From assembly GCF_016469035.1 (NCBI RefSeq), contig NZ_JAEHJZ010000004.1:111173-175172 (forward strand): a stretch of 64,000 nucleotides of DNA, given 5' to 3'. Each line of letters begins with the position of its first letter. Position 1 is the first letter of the stretch. The notes under the pieces are model-generated. The model saw nothing but the letters and a program-made list of their open reading frames with translations, did not search any database and had not been told where the DNA came from. This DNA is from Gelidibacter salicanalis (lineage in GTDB: Bacteria > Bacteroidota > Bacteroidia > Flavobacteriales > Flavobacteriaceae). This document shows, in pieces, positions 47,442 through 55,962 of the stretch. A program made the translations under genes and the position numbers.

Positions 47442-47509
47442 GAATTTTTAAAAATTACCTAGAAAAAAATTAGGTTTTATCTAAATCTTTTTTGATTTTT
47501 GAAGGATAA

Positions 47510-47572
47510 ATGAACAAAATAAATTTAAATATCAGTTCTAATATTAGCGTCGTGATTTTGTCACAGCGATGA
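47510..47572 (+). CDS. ilv leader peptide 1
   Basis: A 20-codon ORF reads MNKINLNISSNISVVILSQR and is preceded by AAGGA. Eight of its 20 codons are Ile, Leu or Val, with a V-V-I-L run five codons before the stop region. TGAGGAA at 47570-47576, starting at the stop codon, is complementary to TTCCTCA (47611-47617) inside terminator 1, giving a 7-bp antiterminator. This is the layout of ribosome-stalling attenuators such as E. coli ilvL, whose peptide also contains I-S-V-V. Confidence 0.75.
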   Translation: MNKINLNISSNISVVILSQR

Positions 47573-47604
47573 GGAATGGTACACTAAATTTAAAAATATA
47601 ATTT

Positions 47605-47640
47605 AAAGCCTTCCTCACCATTGGAAGGCTTTTTTTTTTA
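47605..47640 (+). terminator. ilv attenuator terminator 1
   Basis: AAAGCCTTCC (47605-47614) pairs with GGAAGGCTTT (47623-47632) around an 8-base loop, followed by seven more T residues. It is a strong intrinsic terminator 32 bases after leader peptide 1. Confidence 0.9.
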
Positions 47641-47669
47641 GTGAGATCCTGTTTTGAATCACGATAAAT

Positions 47670-47708
47670 TCGGGAGCGGAACATGGCGGTCAAAACATGT
47701 TGTCCCGA
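47670..47708 (+). repeat. hairpin between the two ilv attenuators
   Basis: TCGGGA (47670-47675) pairs with TCCCGA (47703-47708), and AACATG (47680-47685) with CATGTT (47696-47701). No T-run follows, so it is not a terminator. It may be an RNA-processing or spacer element. Confidence 0.45.
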
Positions 47709-47736
47709 TATTGGAATAATATAAATAGTATTACCA

Positions 47737-47787
47737 ATGAATCAAGTATTAGTCATTATTAGCGTGGTCATTATTAACTCGAGTTAG
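47737..47787 (+). CDS. ilv leader peptide 2
   Basis: A 16-codon ORF reads MNQVLVIISVVIINSS, with ten Ile/Leu/Val codons in runs V-L-V-I-I and V-V-I-I. TGATACAG (47789-47796), two bases after the stop, is complementary to CTGTATCA (47818-47825) in terminator 2 and identical in its core to the terminator's right arm. The core I-S-V-V-I is shared with leader 1 and encoded by nearly the same bases, suggesting duplication. Confidence 0.8.
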   Translation: MNQVLVIISVVIINSS

Positions 47788-47810
47788 TTGATACAGTATG
47801 CTATTTCCAT

Positions 47811-47845
47811 AAAAAGCCTGTATCAATGAGATACAGGCTTTTTTT
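47811..47845 (+). terminator. ilv attenuator terminator 2
   Basis: AAAAAGCCTGTATC (47811-47824) pairs perfectly with GATACAGGCTTTTT (47830-47843) around AATGA and continues in T residues. It is 23 bases after leader peptide 2 and 152 bases before ilvE. Confidence 0.92.
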
Positions 47846-47997
47846 ATTGAAAATTTTAGCATTTTGAACATCATAAATAAACTAATCTAAATGACTGATT
47901 GTCATGGTTTTAAATAACAAACTTAATTACTGAGTTTAGTCTGAAACAGCAATTTTGGAATACTCAAACCATACCTTATACTAATTTTAAACTTTAA

Positions 47998-48903
47998 ATG
48001 ATTATGAACGCATACTATAACAACCAAACTATTATTTACCACAAGGGTGAATTTTTGAAACCTGAAGCCGCAACTAGCAGTTTATATAGCCAAAGCTTGC
48101 ATTACGGCAATGGGGTTTTTGAAGGTATCAGGTCTTATAAAACAGAGGCTGGTACCAAGATTTTTAAAGCTAAGGCACATTATGAGCGTCTTAAATATGG
48201 TGCTAAAGTGATGGGTATTCCTTTCAACTATTCCATTAAAGAACTAACAGCCATCACCCATGAGTTACTAGAACGAAACCAACTTGAGGATGCTTATATA
48301 AGACCAATAATCAGTACAGGTGCCAATATGGGACTCTATACCTCAAAAGAATCTATTTTGACTATGCAGTGTTGGGCATGGGGGAAACTCATGGGCGATA
48401 AATTGTTGCGTGTCAAAACCTCATCGTTTGAACGCCCTAATCCAAAATCCTGTTTTGTAGAAGCTAAGGTTACGGGACATTATATCAACTCCATTCTATC
48501 CACCAATGAAGCCAAAGACGCAGGTTTTGATGAAGCTTTACTATTGGATATGTACGGTAATGTGGCAGAATGTTCTGGTGCAAATATCTTTATGGAAAAG
48601 GATGGCAAGCTATTTACACCAAAAAAAGGTAGCATTATGGCAGGAATTACACGTTCTACCATTTTAGAAATTTGTAAGGAAGAAGGCATTCCTGTTGAAG
48701 AAAGACATTTCAAACTGGATGAACTGAAACAAGCAGACAGCTCATTCTTTACGGGCACAGCCGCTGAAGTTGTCGGACTCAAATCATTGGACGATTATGA
48801 ATTTCCTTTACAATGGACCGATTCACTAGGTCATAAATTAATGAAGTTGTACCAACAAGAAGTTTTAGGACAACGCAAAAATAAATTATCAAAAGCGCTA
48901 TGA
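47998..48903 (+). CDS. ilvE: branched-chain amino acid aminotransferase
   Basis: This 301-residue class IV PLP aminotransferase interconverts branched-chain amino acids and 2-oxo acids with glutamate. Motifs are [28 protein letters not shown] (PLP-lysine region), [10 protein letters not shown] and [15 protein letters not shown]. The frame starts MIMNAYYNN, and the second Met (48004) is an equally good start. It heads the ilvE-ilvD-ilvB-ilvN-ilvC-ilvA operon behind the attenuator region and overlaps ilvD by four bases. Confidence 0.95.
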
Positions 48904-50579
48904 GTACATTAAATAAATATAGTAAAACAGTTACACAAGATCCTACGCAACCCGCTGCTCAAGCAATGTTGCACGCCATCGGACTAACTACCGAAGATTT
49001 TTTCAAACCCATGATCGGAATTGCCAGTACAGGATATGAAGGCAATCCGTGTAACATGCATTTGAACGACTTAGCCAAATTGGTGAAAGAAGGTACCAAA
49101 AACGAAGATATTATTGGTTTGATTTTCAATACGATTGGTGTAAGTGACGGCATTTCAATGGGAACTCCCGGAATGCGCTACTCCTTACCATCTCGTGATA
49201 TCATTGCAGACTCCATGGAAACTGTAGTGCAAGCAATGAGTTATGATGGTTTGGTAACTGTAGTTGGTTGTGATAAAAATATGCCTGGAGCATTAATGGC
49301 GATGATCAGGTTAGATCGACCAAGTATTTTAGTTTATGGTGGTACCATCGATTCTGGGTGTCATAATGGAAAAAAATTAGATATCGTTTCAGCATTTGAA
49401 GCATGGGGGAGCAAAGTAGCTGGCACCATGACAGAAACCGATTATCAAAGTATTGTGGAAAAAGCATGCCCAGGCGCAGGAGCTTGTGGCGGGATGTACA
49501 CGGCAAACACCATGGCTTCTGCAATTGAAGCATTGGGAATGACCTTGCCTTATAACGCTTCAAACCCAGCGTTGAGTGATGCCAAGAAAACTGAGTCCGT
49601 CAAAGCAGGCGAAGCCATGCGCCTTCTGTTGGAAAAAGACATCAAACCATCAGACATCATCACCAGAAAATCTTTGGAAAATGCAGTTCGGTTAGTGACT
49701 ATTCTCGGAGGTTCTACCAATGCTGTACTCCATTTTTTAGCTATTGCAAGAGCAGCTCAAATAGATTTTACACTTAAAGATTTTCAAAATATTAGTGATA
49801 ATACCCCATTTTTAGCCGATTTAAAACCAAGTGGCAAGTACCTTATGGAAGATGTGCATGCGGTTGGTGGCATTCCGGCGGTTTTAAAATATCTCCTCAA
49901 AAAAGGAATGCTTCATGGCGATTGCATGACTGTTACCGGAAAAACAATGGCAGAAAACTTGTTGGATGTGGAGGATTTAAAAGAAGGACAAGACGTCATT
50001 ATGCCTATAGAAAATCCGATTAAAATCTCTGGACATTTACGCATGCTCTATGGTAATTTGGCAACGGAAGGTAGTGTGGCAAAAATTACAGGCAAGGAAG
50101 GTCTAAGATTTGTTGGAAAGGCAAAAGTATTTGAAGGAGAATACGCAGCCAATGATGGCATCAGAGATGGTAAAGTTGAAAAAGGCGATGTCGTCGTTAT
50201 TAGATATGAAGGCCCAAAAGGTGGCCCTGGAATGCCTGAAATGTTAAAACCTACTGCAGCAATAATTGGCGCAGGCTTAGGAAATGATGTTGCGTTGATT
50301 ACCGATGGTCGTTTTTCAGGAGGCACCCACGGTTTTGTAGTGGGTCATATCACTCCTGAAGCACAAGAAGGCGGCACCATTGCTTTGGTAAAAGATGGCG
50401 ATTTGATTACTATTAACGCTGAAACCAATACCATATCTCTGGAAGTTTCTGAAGATGAACTTCAGGAGCGTCGTTCACAATGGCAAGCACCTGCGTTGAA
50501 ATTTGATCGTGGTGTTCTTTACAAATATGCAAAAACAGTTTCGTCAGCATCTAAAGGATGTGTTACGGATGAATTCTAA
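48900..50579 (+). CDS. ilvD: dihydroxy-acid dehydratase
   Basis: This 559-residue Fe-S enzyme dehydrates 2,3-dihydroxy-acids to the 2-oxo acids that precede valine and isoleucine. Conserved segments are [56 protein letters not shown] and [15 protein letters not shown]. It is of full length. It is coupled to ilvE by an ATGA overlap, and a structured 137-base gap separates it from ilvB. Confidence 0.97.
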
Positions 50580-50591
50580 ACAAATTCCTGC

Positions 50592-50694
50592 GTGGTTATT
50601 ACTAAGCTTGCCGAAGTGCAAACAGGAACCACTTAGCAAAATGTTGGAAGTAAAAACTTAAGAAAATAGATTATTGAGGTTCCTTTTGAAGGAA
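50592..50694 (+). promoter_or_regulatory. structured ilvD-ilvB intergenic leader
   Basis: AACCAC (50627-50632) can pair with GTGGTT (50592-50597). Alternatively, the overlapping AGGAACC (50624-50630) can pair with GGTTCCT (50678-50684). The two stems exclude each other. TTCCTT/AAGGAA makes a further small hairpin (50680-50694). A GTG-initiated 14-codon frame (50592-50636) overlaps the first stem. There is no U-tract terminator, so a switch acting on ilvB translation or mRNA processing is more likely than attenuation. Confidence 0.35.
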
Positions 50695-50716
50695 TAAAAA
50701 AAAACAAGTTTTCAAT

Positions 50717-52450
50717 ATGAATACAAAAACTTTAAATAAAGAACAAACAAAAACCGCTACTACTATCCGTATCTCAGGCAGCGAAGCAATCATCAGATGT
50801 CTTATCGCTGAAGGGGTTGATATTCTTTACGGATATCCTGGTGGCGCAATCATGCCAGTTTATGATGAACTTTACAAGTTTAGAGAACAAATTCATCATG
50901 TATTAACGCGCCATGAACAAGGTGCTACACACGCTGCACAAGGGTATGCACGTATTTCGGGTAAAGTTGGTGTAGCCATAGCCACTTCTGGTCCGGGAGC
51001 TACAAATTTGATTACAGGAATTGCAGACGCACAAATTGATTCTACCCCAATGGTGTGTATAACAGGTCAGGTTGCGTCTCATTTATTGGGAAGTGATGCG
51101 TTTCAGGAAACTGATATTATTGGCATTTCAACACCAGTTACCAAATGGAACCATCAAGTTACCAAAGCGTCCCAAATTCCTGAAATCATCGCTAAAGCAT
51201 TTTATATTGCCAAAAGCGGACGTCCAGGCCCTGTTTTAATTGACATCACTAAGGATGCACAATTTGAGGAACTTGATTTTTCGTATGAAAAATGCACACG
51301 CGTCAGAAGCTATAACCCGGTTCCAAAAACGGATATAGACGATGTTAAGGCTGCAGCACTTTTAATAAATTCCGCTAAGAAACCGATGATTGTTTGGGGA
51401 CAAGGCGTTATTCTTGGTAAAGCAGAAAATGAACTAAAATCCATCATCGAAAAAGCAGGGATTCCGGCAGCATGGACCATTCTTGGTGCTTCGGCAGTCC
51501 CTACAGCACATCCATTAAATATAGGTATGGTAGGAATGCATGGTAACTATGCACCTAATGTACTGACTAATGATTGTGATGTTTTAATTGCGATCGGCAT
51601 GCGTTTTGACGATCGTGTCACCGGAAACTTAGCCACTTATGCAAAACAAGCTAAAATTATTCACTTTGATATTGACCCAGCAGAAATTGATAAAAACGTA
51701 AAAACTGACGTTTCCGTTTTAGGTGATGCCAAAGAAAGTTTATCACAACTTTTACCATTGTTAAAACCGAATTCACATACTGAATGGCATCAAAAATTCA
51801 AAGATTTGTACGCTATAGAATATGAAAAAGTCATTAAAGATGATCTGTATCCTACAAAGGAAGGGTTGACTATGGGCGAAGTGCTCAAAGAAATCAATAT
51901 CCAAACCAAAGGGAATGCCGCTATTGTATCGGATGTTGGGCAACACCAAATGATTGCCTGCCGTTATGCAGAATTCACCACCACCAGAAGCAATATCACT
52001 TCTGGCGGATTGGGCACCATGGGATTTGCGCTTCCTGCAGCCATTGGCGCTAAAATGTCGGCTCCAGAACGCGATGTCGTCGCTATTATTGGTGATGGAG
52101 GCTACCAAATGACCATTCAGGAATTGGGTACCATTTTTCAACAAAAAGTTCCTGTAAAAATCGTCGTCTTGAACAATGAGTTTTTAGGTATGGTACGTCA
52201 GTGGCAGCAGTTGTTTTTTGATAAGCGGTACGCCTCCACTGAAATGACCAATCCTGATTTTGTGGCCATCGCAAAAGGATACTATATAGATGCGCAGAAA
52301 GTTACCAAAAGAGAAGATTTGAAAAATGCCGTTGCAGAAATGATGGCTTGCGAAGGCCCTTACTTTTTAGAGGTATGCGTAGAGAAAGAAGGCAATGTAT
52401 TCCCAATGATTCCAAGTGGCGCGAGTGTTTCGGAGGTGCGTTTGGAATAA
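50717..52450 (+). CDS. ilvB: acetolactate synthase, large (catalytic) subunit
   Basis: This 577-residue TPP-dependent enzyme condenses pyruvate with pyruvate or 2-oxobutyrate. The catalytic-Glu segment is VLTRHEQGATHAAQGYAR. The FAD-region segment IGMRFDDRVTGN and the TPP motif GDGGYQMTIQELGTIFQQ...VVLNNEFLGMVRQWQ are intact. An N-terminal extension of about 15 residues precedes the domain. The regulatory partner ilvN follows. Confidence 0.97.
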   Translation: MNTKTLNKEQTKTATTIRISGSEAIIRCLIAEGVDILYGYPGGAIMPVYDELYKFREQIHHVLTRHEQGATHAAQGYARISGKVGVAIATSGPGATNLITGIADAQIDSTPMVCITGQVASHLLGSDAFQETDIIGISTPVTKWNHQVTKASQIPEIIAKAFYIAKSGRPGPVLIDITKDAQFEELDFSYEKCTRVRSYNPVPKTDIDDVKAAALLINSAKKPMIVWGQGVILGKAENELKSIIEKAGIPAAWTILGASAVPTAHPLNIGMVGMHGNYAPNVLTNDCDVLIAIGMRFDDRVTGNLATYAKQAKIIHFDIDPAEIDKNVKTDVSVLGDAKESLSQLLPLLKPNSHTEWHQKFKDLYAIEYEKVIKDDLYPTKEGLTMGEVLKEINIQTKGNAAIVSDVGQHQMIACRYAEFTTTRSNITSGGLGTMGFALPAAIGAKMSAPERDVVAIIGDGGYQMTIQELGTIFQQKVPVKIVVLNNEFLGMVRQWQQLFFDKRYASTEMTNPDFVAIAKGYYIDAQKVTKREDLKNAVAEMMACEGPYFLEVCVEKEGNVFPMIPSGASVSEVRLE

Positions 52451-52595
52451 GTTGGAAGCACGAAACTTGAAGGAATATTATAACTGAGAAAACAGAATAA
52501 AGAGAAAAGAACAGAGATGATGCTATCAAAATTTAAAAATGAAGCAACATCAAGTCTATCCTCTATTCTCTATCATCCAAAATCTTATTAGAACA

Positions 52596-53123
52596 ATGAG
52601 TGAAACTAAATTATATACCGTATCCATTTATACCGAAAACAATATTGGTTTGCTAAACCGTATTTCGGCTATTTTTCAACGCCGTCATCTTAATCTCGAC
52701 AGTATTAATATTTCGGTTTCTGAGATTGAGAACGTCTCTAAATGGACCATCGTCTTACAACTTTCCGAAGAACGAATGAAAAAAGTCATCGGTCAGATAG
52801 AAAAACAGATTGAGGTCATTAAAGCTTATTACCATACCGAAGAGGAGACCATTTATCAAGAATCCTGCTTGTTCAAACTCAGGTCAAATTTACTTTTTGA
52901 TGAACGCGAGATTCAAAATATCATTAAAGAGAGTAACGCCCGAATAGTGACGGTCAACCGAGAGTTTTTCGTCATTGAAAAATCAGGTCGTAAAGAGGAA
53001 TTAGAATTATTACATCGCGAATTGAGTGTTTTTGGAATCATGCAATTTACACGTTCTGGGCGTATTGCAGTGACCAAAGACGAAATGAAAATATCAAAAA
53101 TGCTTGAAGCATTTCAACATTAA
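52596..53123 (+). CDS. ilvN: acetolactate synthase, small (regulatory) subunit
   Basis: This protein of about 175 residues has an N-terminal ACT domain (YTVSIYTENNIGLLNRISAIFQRR) that senses valine, followed by the ALS_ss C-terminal domain. I start it at 52596 (MSETKLYTVSIY) because the open frame to 52539 adds 19 residues unlike the family. It lies 12 bases before ilvC. Confidence 0.93.
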   Translation: MSETKLYTVSIYTENNIGLLNRISAIFQRRHLNLDSINISVSEIENVSKWTIVLQLSEERMKKVIGQIEKQIEVIKAYYHTEEETIYQESCLFKLRSNLLFDEREIQNIIKESNARIVTVNREFFVIEKSGRKEELELLHRELSVFGIMQFTRSGRIAVTKDEMKISKMLEAFQH

Positions 53124-53135
53124 AAATCAAATAAA

Positions 53136-54638
53136 ATGTCAAATTATTTCAACACATTACCATTAAGACAACAATTAGAGCAATTGGGAAAATGCCGATT
53201 TATGGACACTTCAGAATTTGAAGATGGCATCAACGCTTTAAAAGGAAAGAAAATAGTTATTGTAGGCTGTGGCGCCCAAGGTTTAAACCAAGGTTTGAAC
53301 ATGCGCGATTCTGGTTTGGATATTTCCTATACTTTGCGTGACGCCGCCATTAAAGAGCAACGTGCATCTTATAAAAACGCAACCTCTAACGGGTTTAACG
53401 TAGGCACTTATGATGAGTTAATCCCAACCGCTGATTTGGTCTTGAATTTAACGCCTGACAAACAACACACTAGCGTTGTAAAAGCCGTTATGCCGTTAAT
53501 GAAAAAAGGAGCAACTTTAAGCTATTCCCACGGATTTAATATTGTGGAAGAAGGCACCAAAATTCGTGAAGATATAACGGTAATTATGGTAGCACCAAAA
53601 TGTCCTGGCACCGAGGTTCGTGAAGAATATAAACGCGGCTTTGGTGTGCCAACATTAATTGCAGTACATCCTGAGAATGATCCAGAACAAAAAGGTTGGA
53701 ATCAAGCTAAGGCTTACGCTGTGGCAACAGGTGGGGATAGAGCGGGTGTTTTGGCATCTTCATTTATTGCAGAAGTGAAAAGTGATTTGATGGGAGAACA
53801 AACCATTCTTTGTGGGGTGCTCCAAACAGGTTCAATCTTAGCATTTGACAAAATGGTAGCAGATGGTGTCAATGCCAATTACGCTGCAAAATTGATTCAA
53901 TTGGGATGGGAAACCATTACCGAAGCTTTAAAACATGGCGGGATTACCAACATGATGGACCGTTTGTCAAATCCAGCGAAAATTAAAGCCTTTGAATTAT
54001 CAGAAGAATTAAAAACCATTTTAAAGCCATTGTTTGAAAAACACATGGACGATATCATTTCTGGGCATTTCTCACAAACCATGATGGAAGATTGGGCCAA
54101 TGATGATGTAAATCTTTTGAAATGGCGTGCTGCAACGGGAGAAACTGCATTTGAAAAAACAGCGTTAACCCCAGACCATATCTCAGAACAAAATTATTTT
54201 GATCACGGGGTGCTGTTAGTCGCTTTTGTTAAATCAGGGGTTGAACTGGCATTTGAAACGATGGTAAGTGCAGGCATTATTGAAGACTCGGCATATTACG
54301 AATCACTTCATGAATTGCCTTTAATTGCAAACACCATCGCCAGAAAAAAACTATACGAAATGAACCGTGTTATTTCTGACACTGCAGAATACGGTTGTTA
54401 TTTGTTTGATCATGCATGTAAGCCTTTATTAGAAGACTTCATGAAAAACGTGGATCAAAATACGATCGGAAAGTCGTTTGCAGATTCCAACAGTGCGGAT
54501 AACCAAGAATTGATTGCAGTTAATGACGCGATTAGAAACCACCCTATTGAAACCGTTGGGAAACGATTGAGAGCAGCCATGACCGCGATGAAAGTGATAA
54601 AAACAGATGCTGAGGCAGAAAACTCAGTGTTAGCATAA
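53136..54638 (+). CDS. ilvC: ketol-acid reductoisomerase, class II
   Basis: This 500-residue enzyme isomerises and reduces acetolactate or acetohydroxybutyrate with NADPH. The Rossmann motif [17 protein letters not shown] (about 44-60) is followed by the two knotted C-terminal domains that define the long class II form. Metal-site segments include [18 protein letters not shown] and [21 protein letters not shown]. The length is typical of class II (about 490 residues). Confidence 0.97.
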
Positions 54639-54661
54639 CAATTAATGTGGAGCTATAATTA

Positions 54662-54683
54662 AGGCAGAAATTGCTTCCTGCCT
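54662..54683 (+). repeat. hairpin between ilvC and ilvA
   Basis: AGGCAG (54662-54667) pairs with CTGCCT (54678-54683) in the 58-base gap. It has no T-run, so it is more likely an mRNA stability or processing element than a terminator. Confidence 0.4.
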
Positions 54684-54696
54684 CTAAAAAAACACG

Positions 54697-55962
54697 ATGA
54701 ACGTTGAAACCAAAATATATTACCCAAGTATAGCTGCCGTTGAGGCAGCCGCGAGAAAATTAAGAGACGTTGCTGCGGTAACTCCGTTAATTCAAAACCT
54801 TCGTTATTCAAAGAAATTTGAAGCGAATATTATGTTTAAACGCGAGGATTTACAACAAGTACGCTCCTATAAAATTAGGGGAGCTTACAATAAAATGTCA
54901 TCGCTGAGCCCCACCCAAGTTGAAAATGGAATTGTATGTGCCAGTGCCGGAAATCATGCACAAGGTGTGGCATTGTCCTGCAAATTATTGCAAACAAAAG
55001 GAACTATTTTCATGCCTTCGCCTACACCTAAACAAAAGATTGAGCAAGTTTACATGTTTGGTGAAGATTTTATTGACGTGGTTTTAGTAGGTGATACATT
55101 TGATGATGCCAATGCTGCTGCGATGTTAGAATGTGAGCGTTTAAATAAGACGTTTATCCACCCCTTTAATGATGAAAAAGTAATTGAAGGTCAAGCCACA
55201 GTAGGTTTGGAAATTATTGATCAGGCGCAACATCCAATCCATTATGTATTTGTTCCTGTTGGCGGCGGCGGTTTGTCAGCTGGATTATCTTCTGTATTTA
55301 AACAGCTGTCTCCAAACACCAAAGTCATTGGAGTTGAGCCAAAAGGGGCGCCTTCCATGTTAACCTCGTTGACCAACAAACGCAATACCGAATTAAAAAA
55401 TATTGAGAATTTTGTGGATGGTGCTGCGGTAAAACGTGTGGGCGATTTGAATTTCGCCATCTGTCAACAAAATTTGCACGATATGATTACGGTTGATGAA
55501 GGTAAAGTGTGCGAAACCATCCTTGATCTCTACAACAAAGACGCTATTGTAGTAGAACCTGCTGGTGCTTTAAGTATTGCTGCTTTAGATCACTATGCGG
55601 ATGAAATTAAAGGTAAAAATGTCATTTGCATTATCAGCGGAAGTAATAATGACATTACCAGAACAGCTGAAATTAAAGAACGTGCACTTTTATATGCCAA
55701 TTTAAAACACTATTTTATTATTAAATTCCCACAACGGGCGGGCGCATTGCGCGAGTTTGTAGTTGATATATTAGGTTCTACTGATGATATTACCTATTTT
55801 GAATACACGAAGAAAACCAATCGTGAAAACGGTGCGGCTGTAGTGGGTTTAGAATTAAAATCAGCGGACGATTTAGAACCACTTATTACCAAAATGAAAC
55901 TCCGTAATTTTTATGGCGATTACCTCAACGATAAACCCGATTTATTTCAATTTTTAGTCTAA
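54697..55962 (+). CDS. ilvA: threonine dehydratase
   Basis: This 421-residue PLP enzyme deaminates threonine to 2-oxobutyrate, committing carbon to isoleucine. The PLP lysine is K59 in RSYKIRGAYNKM, the phosphate-binding loop is PVGGGGLSAGL, and CASAGNHAQGVAL is present. A single ACT-like domain (about 335-420) at the C-terminus suggests isoleucine feedback; this is shorter than the two-domain tail of E. coli IlvA. It is the last biosynthetic gene of the ilv operon. Confidence 0.95.
   Translation: MNVETKIYYPSIAAVEAAARKLRDVAAVTPLIQNLRYSKKFEANIMFKREDLQQVRSYKIRGAYNKMSSLSPTQVENGIVCASAGNHAQGVALSCKLLQTKGTIFMPSPTPKQKIEQVYMFGEDFIDVVLVGDTFDDANAAAMLECERLNKTFIHPFNDEKVIEGQATVGLEIIDQAQHPIHYVFVPVGGGGLSAGLSSVFKQLSPNTKVIGVEPKGAPSMLTSLTNKRNTELKNIENFVDGAAVKRVGDLNFAICQQNLHDMITVDEGKVCETILDLYNKDAIVVEPAGALSIAALDHYADEIKGKNVICIISGSNNDITRTAEIKERALLYANLKHYFIIKFPQRAGALREFVVDILGSTDDITYFEYTKKTNRENGAAVVGLELKSADDLEPLITKMKLRNFYGDYLNDKPDLFQFLV

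Follow-up and report, generated by a model that had tools for sequence, protein, structure and literature searches.

This work addresses how the ilv operon of Gelidibacter salicanalis may be controlled by two short, branched-chain-residue-rich open reading frames (ORFs) that precede it. The region lies in a stretch of 64,000 nucleotides (referred to here as the window), which a first-pass annotation had read as carrying a serial pair of leader-peptide attenuators ahead of the ilv operon, to be checked by searching related Flavobacteriaceae for the same layout and for compensatory base changes. In the comparisons described below, that reading appears to withstand these sequence tests, and we consider it very likely that the locus carries two ribosome-mediated transcription attenuators in series on one transcript. 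Comparison between genomes bears out the parts, their order, the alternative pairings (weakly in the case of one antiterminator), and the position of a promoter-like box.

Architecture of the leader region

The features of the locus follow one another in the order gltB, gltD, leader A, leader B, ilvE, ilvD, ilvB, ilvN, ilvC, and ilvA (gltB and gltD were named from their sequence), and all elements located below lie on the plus strand. The first gene of the putatively regulated operon is ilvE (48004 to 48903; PF01063), whose start at 48004 is retained in congeners lacking an ATG at 47998. The remaining genes, ilvD, ilvB, ilvN, ilvC, and ilvA, occupy 48900 to 55962 and were recognized by their Pfam domains. 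Judged by the domains of the ilvE, D, B, N, C, and A products, the operon makes the amino acids that are read by the leader codons.

Leader A begins with an ORF read directly from the sequence (47510 to 47572), which encodes peptide A (MNKINLNISSNISVVILSQR) and has Ile, Leu, or Val at 8 of the 19 residues after the initiator. Within this ORF, segment 1 (TATCAGTTCT, 47530 to 47539) can pair with AGGAATGGTA (47572 to 47581) at 9 of 10 positions, forming a protector helix that belongs to the predicted minimum-energy fold. The last codons of the ORF contain a tip hairpin (47550 to 47566) made of TCGTGA (47550 to 47555) and TCACAG (47561 to 47566). Segment 2, the antiterminator strand GAGGAATGGTA (47571 to 47581), offers an alternative 2:3 pairing: GAGGAA (47571 to 47576) is the exact complement of TTCCTC (47611 to 47616), in the left arm of the hairpin at 47605 to 47632. 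This hairpin (segments 3 and 4) and the run of T that follows it to 47639 make up terminator A (47605 to 47639).

A spacer (47641 to 47736) lacking any -7-like box separates the two attenuators. Leader B then opens with the ORF for peptide B (MNQVLVIISVVIINSS, 47737 to 47787, stop codon TAG at 47785 to 47787), in which 9 of the 15 residues after the initiator are Ile, Leu, or Val. Its protector (47760 to 47803) consists of TAGCGTG (47760 to 47766) with TATGCTA (47797 to 47803) and of TATTAACT (47772 to 47779) with AGTTGATA (47786 to 47793). Segment 2 of B, the antiterminator strand TTGATACAG (47788 to 47796), starts directly behind the stop codon and is complementary over 9 bp to CTGTATCAA (47818 to 47826), which lies in the hairpin at 47811 to 47843. 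That hairpin (segments 3 and 4) and its U tract form terminator B (47811 to 47845). Direct reading thus places both leader ORFs, the strands behind their stop codons, and the terminators upstream of ilvE-D-B-N-C-A where the first-pass annotation had put them; the protector helices, which arise from codons inside both ORFs, were absent from it.

Several other features of the region were noted. The spacer may form a hairpin of its own (TCGGGAGCGGAACATG/CATGTTGTCCCGA). It was rejected as a repeated mobile element, as no other full copy of its 96 bases occurs in the genome. Downstream of terminator B, two blocks at about 47857 to 47885 (TTTAGCATTTTGAACATCATAAATAAA) and 47932 to 47945 (CTGAGTTTAGTCT) are largely conserved in Gelidibacter. 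A pairing of ATGCTA (47798 to 47803) with a TAGCAT downstream of terminator B was rejected by eye because L010 and L011 break it though the partner is kept.

Occurrence of the pair beyond chance

To gauge chance, the window was scanned for ATG-initiated ORFs of 12 to 28 amino acids with at least 42% Ile, Leu, or Val and a terminator 10 to 60 nt downstream. Three matches were found on the plus strand and one on the minus strand, and two of these four are leaders A and B; the same scan gave no match in ten first-order Markov windows (one strand each). An ORF coinciding with such a terminator is therefore rare in the window. Relative to 200 shuffles, the folding z-scores were -2.79 (47500 to 47645) and -3.11 (47641 to 47850).

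The strongest argument against chance is conservation. Covariance models were built from 36 A sequences (R1) and 34 B sequences (R2), and each has one strong copy in the 5.16-Mb genome of origin. The window copies, which are themselves among the model rows, score 128.8 bits (A) and 111.7 bits (B). The next-best place in the genome scores 36.5 bits with the A model; with the B model, it is the opposite strand of the same place (45.4 bits), followed by 30.1 bits elsewhere. The attenuator families in Rfam include Leu_leader and Trp_leader, and an Rfam scan of the window at gathering thresholds gave no matches.

Conservation of the alternative structures

For A, the terminated state comprises the outer protector helix (of the TATTATTTCT type, with AGGAATGGTA), the tip hairpin in the last codons, and the terminator. 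Base changes on both sides of a pair occur in 38 alignment cells for A (13.1 in shuffles) and in 57 for B (24.5 in shuffles), and none of 500 shuffles scored as high in either case. The terminators are paired in 92.5% (A) and 94.5% (B) of cells. Across the 36 A sequences, the 1:2 helix is paired in 81.1% of cells and the tip hairpin in 90.3%, with both-side changes in 5 of the 6 tip pairs; its TGTGA/TCACA arms vary to GCGA/TCGC (L013), GTAA/TTAC (L088), and GCAA/TTGC (L022), the peptide changing with them. In B, the inner protector helices are paired in 94.7% and 90.8% of cells (both-side changes in 1 of 5 and 3 of 4 pairs), and the outer one is weaker (62.3%). The B helix extends through the end of the ORF into GATA, and its tip arms appear as ACTC/GAGT (L028), TCCC/GGGA (L053), TTCC/GGAA (L062), and ACCC/GGGT (L047).

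The antiterminators gave a mixed answer on compensatory changes. Antiterminator A covaries, with 31 both-side-change cells compared to 14.5 in shuffles and 0 of 500 shuffles as high. Antiterminator B is paired in 94.4% of cells, compared to 23 to 38% when the strand is slid, and its covariation score was reached by 63 of 500 shuffles. Its strand is common to three helices and almost invariant, so covariation cannot test this pairing. Instead, duplex energies of strands from the same genome were compared with those of strands from different genomes. Within-genome pairing beats cross-genome pairing for all four helices: p = 5e-5 for both 2:3 and 1:2 of A (n = 31), and p = 5e-5 for 1:2 and p = 0.007 for 2:3 of B (n = 25). 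Synonymous recoding weakens the fold at the ORF end (z is negative in all 28 A leaders and in 21 of the 25 B leaders, with p up to 0.05 in 19 and 12, respectively), and the window's own values of -0.88 (A) and +0.05 (B) are not significant. Of the compensatory changes that the first-pass annotation proposed to look for in the antiterminators, those of leader A are present; the antiterminator of leader B is nearly invariant and is supported by the pairing test (p = 0.007). Conserved alternative pairings appear supported by the alignments, weakly in the case of antiterminator B.

The permutation and shuffle tests ignore shared descent. For alignment A1, 10 of 46 A rows were dropped (L012, L014, L031, L063, L080, L087, L089, and three of L094). 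The recoding test omitted the same eight A loci and all Gelidibacter genomes other than the window's, and the self-versus-cross test likewise kept only the window from Gelidibacter and omitted L094, L012, L014, L031, and L089. Separately, type A leaders in L012, L014, and L089 have their stop codon displaced past segment 2, which counts against the attenuator reading and also makes them natural tests of the distance a ribosome has to cover.

These structures also bear on whether the elements act in transcription at all. The ORFs could be upstream ORFs and the hairpins processing or stability elements, with control exerted on translation or through protection from mRNA decay. We know of no demonstration of ribosome-polymerase coupling in Bacteroidota, which counts in favor of such control. 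It also accords with the initiation of translation without Shine-Dalgarno sites in flavobacteria, as described in the available text of a Flavobacterium psychrophilum study (PMC9723704). However, the hairpins cannot mask the ilvE start codon, because their U tracts end about 365 and 159 nt upstream of it. In addition, segment 2 begins at each stop codon or next to it and is in competition with the terminator, an arrangement expected of attenuation in particular, and the available text of the same study proposes leader-peptide attenuation in F. psychrophilum from transcriptome data (PMC9723704). We therefore judge control by translation or mRNA decay to be very unlikely and retain transcription attenuation as the preferred reading.

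Two leader families

An ORF-plus-terminator scan of the genus and a family sample returned two recurring kinds of leader, types A and B. Type A leaders have peptides like MKKQILNIISIIVIVIISQG, post-stop strands like GGGAATGGTAT, and terminator arms GCCTTCC/GGAAGGC; type B leaders have peptides like MNQNIIIISVIIINSS, the post-stop strand TTGATACAG, and terminator arms CCTGTATC/GATACAGG. Among congeners, A peptides are mostly of the form MKKQNLNIISIISxVIISQR and B peptides of the form MNQNIIIISVIIINSS or MQQNIIIISIIIISSS.

The ISVVI core shared by the two window peptides had been taken in the first-pass annotation as the mark of a duplication. A recent local copying event would explain the likeness of the ORFs: leaders A and B of the window are 63.4% identical, more than in 100 mononucleotide shuffles, and the models cross-match weakly (window B scores 38.0 bits with R1 and window A 28.8 bits with R2). 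Real duplications of B also exist elsewhere. Three gates precede ilvE in L094:1666-2081 and L161:2888-3295 (L161 is genome G331 of the order survey described below), namely, a leader A (54.5 and 45.4 bits, respectively) and two B copies that are 92.5% (L094) and 87.2% (L161) identical, a recent duplication of the second gate. In the window, on the other hand, A-B identity falls below the identities between genera (A-A, 76.6%; B-B, 76.2%; one comparison each), and A and B are separate families across genera with different terminator arms. A recent duplication of one leader was thus rejected for Gelidibacter, and we regard it as extremely improbable. An ancient duplication is possible, given that the A-B identity in the window lies above the shuffles.

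Distribution across genomes

The layout was searched for in relatives, as the first-pass annotation had proposed. In Gelidibacter, A is followed by B in 9 of 10 genomes. Outside the genus, 102 usable Flavobacteriaceae loci comprise 34 with A only, 12 with B only, 14 with A and B, and 42 with neither, i.e., the tandem in 14 and one element in 46 more. Where both occur, A precedes B in all 14 outside loci and in all 9 congeners. The family sample held about one genome per genus, of which 110 of 149 match ilvD at E values up to 0.001, and the sequence used was the DNA upstream of ilvD or ilvE. Of the 103 non-Gelidibacter loci obtained, L036 was unusable (its contig piece begins inside ilvD); the tally covered 101 loci, to which L022 (A and B, lacking a full ilvD row) was added. 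Labels were assigned at R1 scores of at least 43 bits for A and R2 scores of at least 55 bits for B. The A assignments of L049 (with unusual terminator arms), L087, and L089 are weak, and L095 and L061 (41.0 and 37.2 bits) were kept as neither. The pieces extend no more than 1.5 or 3 kb upstream of ilvD and would miss a leader before a longer operon, so some of the 42 loci with neither element may have a more distant one.

A scan of named genomes for the compact A-plus-B layout gave 26 matches, at least 7 of them in genomes already in the locus sample; 24 have ilvE or ilvD 177 to 324 nt downstream, and the other two are L126, which stops at a contig end, and L118, which is unrelated. Both covariance models match 25 of the 26. 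The genera include Gelidibacter, Gaetbulibacter, Bizionia, Polaribacter, Sinomicrobium, Ulvibacter, Aureisphaera, and Lacinutrix, among others. Two further loci, L159:455-1309 and L162:437-717, have an A-plus-B-like pair with no match to ilvE, ilvD, ilvB, ilvC, or ilvA within 3.6 kb; in L159, the pair is followed by an isolated gene for the small subunit of acetolactate synthase (PF10369).

Mapped onto an ilvD tree that FastTree built from 111 rows, the four leader states need at least 35 changes, compared to 56.3 in shuffles, and the A-plus-B state needs 13, at least 7 of which are forced by well-supported branches. Leader states are thus clustered, yet often changed. This is an operon tree rather than a species tree, because ilvD has been partly replaced between lineages. 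In the Gelidibacter genomes L009, L010, and L011, ilvD is only 77 to 78% identical to that of the window and falls in another clade of the ilvD tree, and ilvE (85 to 91%) and both leaders are close to the window's; ilvD seems to have been replaced in place.

Wider surveys used stricter filters and miss weak copies. In the order survey, R1 matched 25 of 395 genomes and R2 69 of 395 (both at E values up to 1e-4); R2 matches under about 45 bits were left out of the element count, since several of them fall on both strands of a single place. Among six possible tandems taken from this survey, G356, G226, and G331 pass both thresholds, and G308 (60.9 and 50.5 bits), G173 (63.6 and 39.0), and G528 (57.1 and 46.4) pass that for A only. 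G528 belongs to another family. In the phylum survey, R1 matched 5 of 198 genomes at E values up to 1e-5 (one outside the class) and R2 4 of 198 at E values up to 1e-7, with the genome of origin included in both counts. Spread of the tandem beyond Flavobacteriaceae is likely but not firm, because the ORF scan found only the first leader in G528.

The many genera with A only or B only raise an alternative to the tandem, in which one leader is active here and the other is a relic or an ordinary terminator separating gltBD from ilv. One Gelidibacter genome, L005, carries leader B alone, having lost leader A and ilvE and retained an apparent remnant of the ilvE end before ilvD. In the window itself, peptide A has ISSNIS where the genus consensus has IISIIS, and segment 1 of A, assessed by eye, is one pair short of its ten. 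Against this, a terminator for gltBD needs neither an ORF nor an alternative pairing, and both peptides, antiterminator strands, and terminators are intact in 9 of 10 Gelidibacter genomes despite a spacer of anywhere between 10 and 125 nt, a contrast that points to selection on both leaders. A single active leader is in our judgment unlikely, and we continue to favor two attenuators acting in series.

Probable promoter and transcript

A probable sigma-A promoter for the whole leader lies at 47470 to 47501, consisting of TTAGG (47470 to 47474), 19 nt, and GATTTTTG (47494 to 47501). For comparison, the available text on F. psychrophilum gives the sigma-A -7 box as TAnnTTTG (PMC9723704). A -7-like box 4 to 15 nt before the ATG occurs in 23 of 34 rows where A comes first (the motif was picked after viewing the sequences, and the other 11, the window's included, fail it as written) and in 9 of 13 rows where B comes first, compared to 9.4% of random places and 0 of 12 rows where B comes second. 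The window box goes uncounted because it begins with G. These counts leave out the congeners with A and B except the window, L093, and two rows whose start gave fewer than 11 amino acids. Within the genus, TTAGG-N18-22-GA[TC]TTTTGA is present in 9 of 9 A-plus-B genomes, the window's among them.

The GATTTTTG box has its last base 8 nt upstream of the leader A start codon; transcription therefore probably begins no more than a few nucleotides from that ATG and yields an almost leaderless mRNA. Leaderless mRNAs make up only 5.5% in F. psychrophilum, according to the available text of that study (PMC9723704). With no -7-like box before any of the 12 second leaders, leader B is probably read only by polymerases that have escaped A. 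A promoter between the leaders was rejected on the same count, on its absence from the window spacer, and on the distance from the terminator A stem to the ATG of B, which is only 10 nt in three congeners (10 to 125 nt within the genus; 9 to 46 nt in 10 of 11 other genera measured). The first-pass annotation had also raised the case of ilvE transcription starting only downstream of 47845. The stretch from terminator B to ilvE has no strong -7 box that is conserved, and a promoter there was rejected on the basis of boxes ending in TTTG, which occur in 2 of 9 A-plus-B Gelidibacter genomes, at places that are not shared. The window has one box of a looser class in this stretch, AATTTTG at 47951.

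Modeled ribosome stalling and the amino acid signal

Ribosome position was modeled by masking the ribosome footprint on a transcript that ends before segment 4. With the A site 4 to 10 codons before the stop codon, the modeled pairing of segment 3 with segment 2 is about 0.75; with the ribosome at the stop codon, it falls to 0.06 for A (n = 28) and 0.25 for B (n = 25). High pairing in the stalled state and low pairing at the stop codon fit classical attenuation in both leaders. For the untranslated leader, the model gives 0.47 (A) and 0.28 (B) across genera, and in the window 0.81 (A) and 0.82 (B), with stop-codon values of 0.09 and 0.34. The protector thus appears weak in the window's own copy, where the antiterminator is modeled to form in the untranslated leader, so termination without translation is best described as a family trend that the window copy may not share.

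At codons -11 to -4, type A leaders have 46% Ile, 25% Val, and 4% Leu (35 peptides), and type B leaders 42% Ile, 27% Val, and 4.5% Leu (25 peptides). Leu is thus rare where the ribosome would stall, and the leaders probably sense Ile and Val, not the full set of branched-chain amino acids, which corrects the first-pass reading.

It could still be that the two gates sense different signals (amino acids or tRNA isoacceptors), as in Salmonella mgtCBR. That A and B are separate families is in keeping with this, as are their different peptide lengths (medians of 20 and 18) and end codons. At the stall codons, however, A and B have almost the same proportions of Ile, Val, and Leu, although this is a comparison of composition only, and genera with A alone and with B alone carry their leaders before the same ilvD operon. 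Different signals therefore seem quite unlikely to us, and a common Ile and Val signal is assumed below.

Proposed mechanism and its implications

If the locus works as two attenuators in series, its operation would involve ribosome stalling, termination, ribosome-polymerase coupling, and multiplicative gain. Transcription would begin just upstream of leader A, and a ribosome would translate peptide A as the polymerase transcribes the leader. With Ile-tRNA and Val-tRNA plentiful, the ribosome would reach the stop codon and cover segment 2, terminator A would form, and transcription would end. With these scarce, the ribosome would stall in the Ile and Val codons, the protector would open, and segment 2 would pair with segment 3. 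After antitermination at A, the polymerase would enter leader B and face the same test in different sequences, such that ilvE would be reached only by polymerases escaping both gates. Because both gates would read the same amino acids, the chance of escaping both should be the product of the two escape probabilities, so that the basal level would be lower and the response steeper than with one gate. The tandem should thereby sharpen the response of ilv to starvation compared to a single switch.

With less assurance, we lean toward a broader reading. In many Flavobacteriaceae, and probably in other Flavobacteriales, ilv would be under one to three stacked attenuators for the same signal, drawn from two old families in the order A then B and served by one promoter nearly at the first AUG. 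The stack would be a gain device whose steepness is set by the gain and loss of gates. If so, ribosome-polymerase coupling in Bacteroidota would have to be tight enough for classical attenuation, and the locus would be evidence for leader-peptide attenuation in a phylum where translation starts without Shine-Dalgarno sites. Should the proposed working hold, this would be a natural cascade of two or three gates with the same input, in which repression would multiply and the response would steepen, although the mechanism is usually presented with one gate. The same operon is found behind A alone, B alone, two gates, or three gates, so that the dependence of gain on gate number could be measured directly. 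In addition, the A and B element families gave no match to Rfam in the window, and covariance models of them could be added.

Comparison with known systems

The enterobacterial operons ilvGMEDA, ilvBN, and leuABCD each have one leader-peptide attenuator; that of ilvGMEDA is multivalent, responding to Leu, Val, and Ile, and enterobacterial leaders are translated from a Shine-Dalgarno site behind a 5' leader. The Gelidibacter leaders share with the enterobacterial ilv and leu systems the short ORF rich in the product amino acids, the four competing segments (protector, antiterminator, and terminator), and the biosynthetic operon. Unlike ilvGMEDA, they have little Leu, and leader A is probably almost leaderless. 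Comparative studies (Vitreschak 2004, Lopatovskaya 2010) reportedly may list single attenuators in Bacteroidetes. Our literature search, which covers subscription journals thinly, found no same-signal tandem of leader-peptide attenuators before an amino acid operon.

The nearest relatives of the arrangement are other leaders with two elements. The mgtCBR leader of Salmonella has two short ORFs and alternative stem-loops that respond to ATP and proline (Lee and Groisman 2012, PMC3641672). In the available text, its authors state that nutrient-biosynthesis genes are normally under a single attenuator, call mgtCBR a "singular example," and set it against metE, where the leader contains a pair of intrinsic terminators (PMC3641672). 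The Gelidibacter leader resembles mgtCBR, as described there, in having two short ORFs and alternative stem-loops in one leader, but both of its gates seem to respond to Ile and Val, and there is a separate terminator for each. The metE leader of Bacillus clausii, as portrayed in the same source, places tandem riboswitches with two terminators in series under two ligands (PMC3641672); it is alike in its two serial terminators on one transcript and differs in using ligand-binding aptamers and no translation. In several Gammaproteobacteria, the rimP leader carries two terminators in tandem, and a possible antiterminator is described for the upstream terminator (Naville and Gautheret 2010, PMC2965389); unlike the Gelidibacter leaders, it precedes another gene in another phylum, and the available text describes no amino acid leader peptide for it. 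The ermB gene has two leader peptides for one gene, as here, but the portion of the source at hand presents translational attenuation induced by erythromycin, a different mechanism and signal (PMC8274638).

Closer in taxonomy or function are three further cases. Leader attenuators without Rfam hits have been proposed upstream of amino acid operons in F. psychrophilum, with pheA and hisG named; these are structured 5' elements in the same family as Gelidibacter, and the available text mentions neither ilv nor a tandem (PMC9723704). Leader-like short ORFs are described in Bacteroides thetaiotaomicron, of the same phylum, again with no mention of ilv or a tandem in the available text (PMC7366714). 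Finally, the Corynebacterium ilvBNC operon, like the present one, places ilv under leader-peptide control outside Proteobacteria; it belongs to a different phylum, and the accessible portions of the sources describe one conserved upstream ORF or one attenuator (PMC10272879, PMC11857589).
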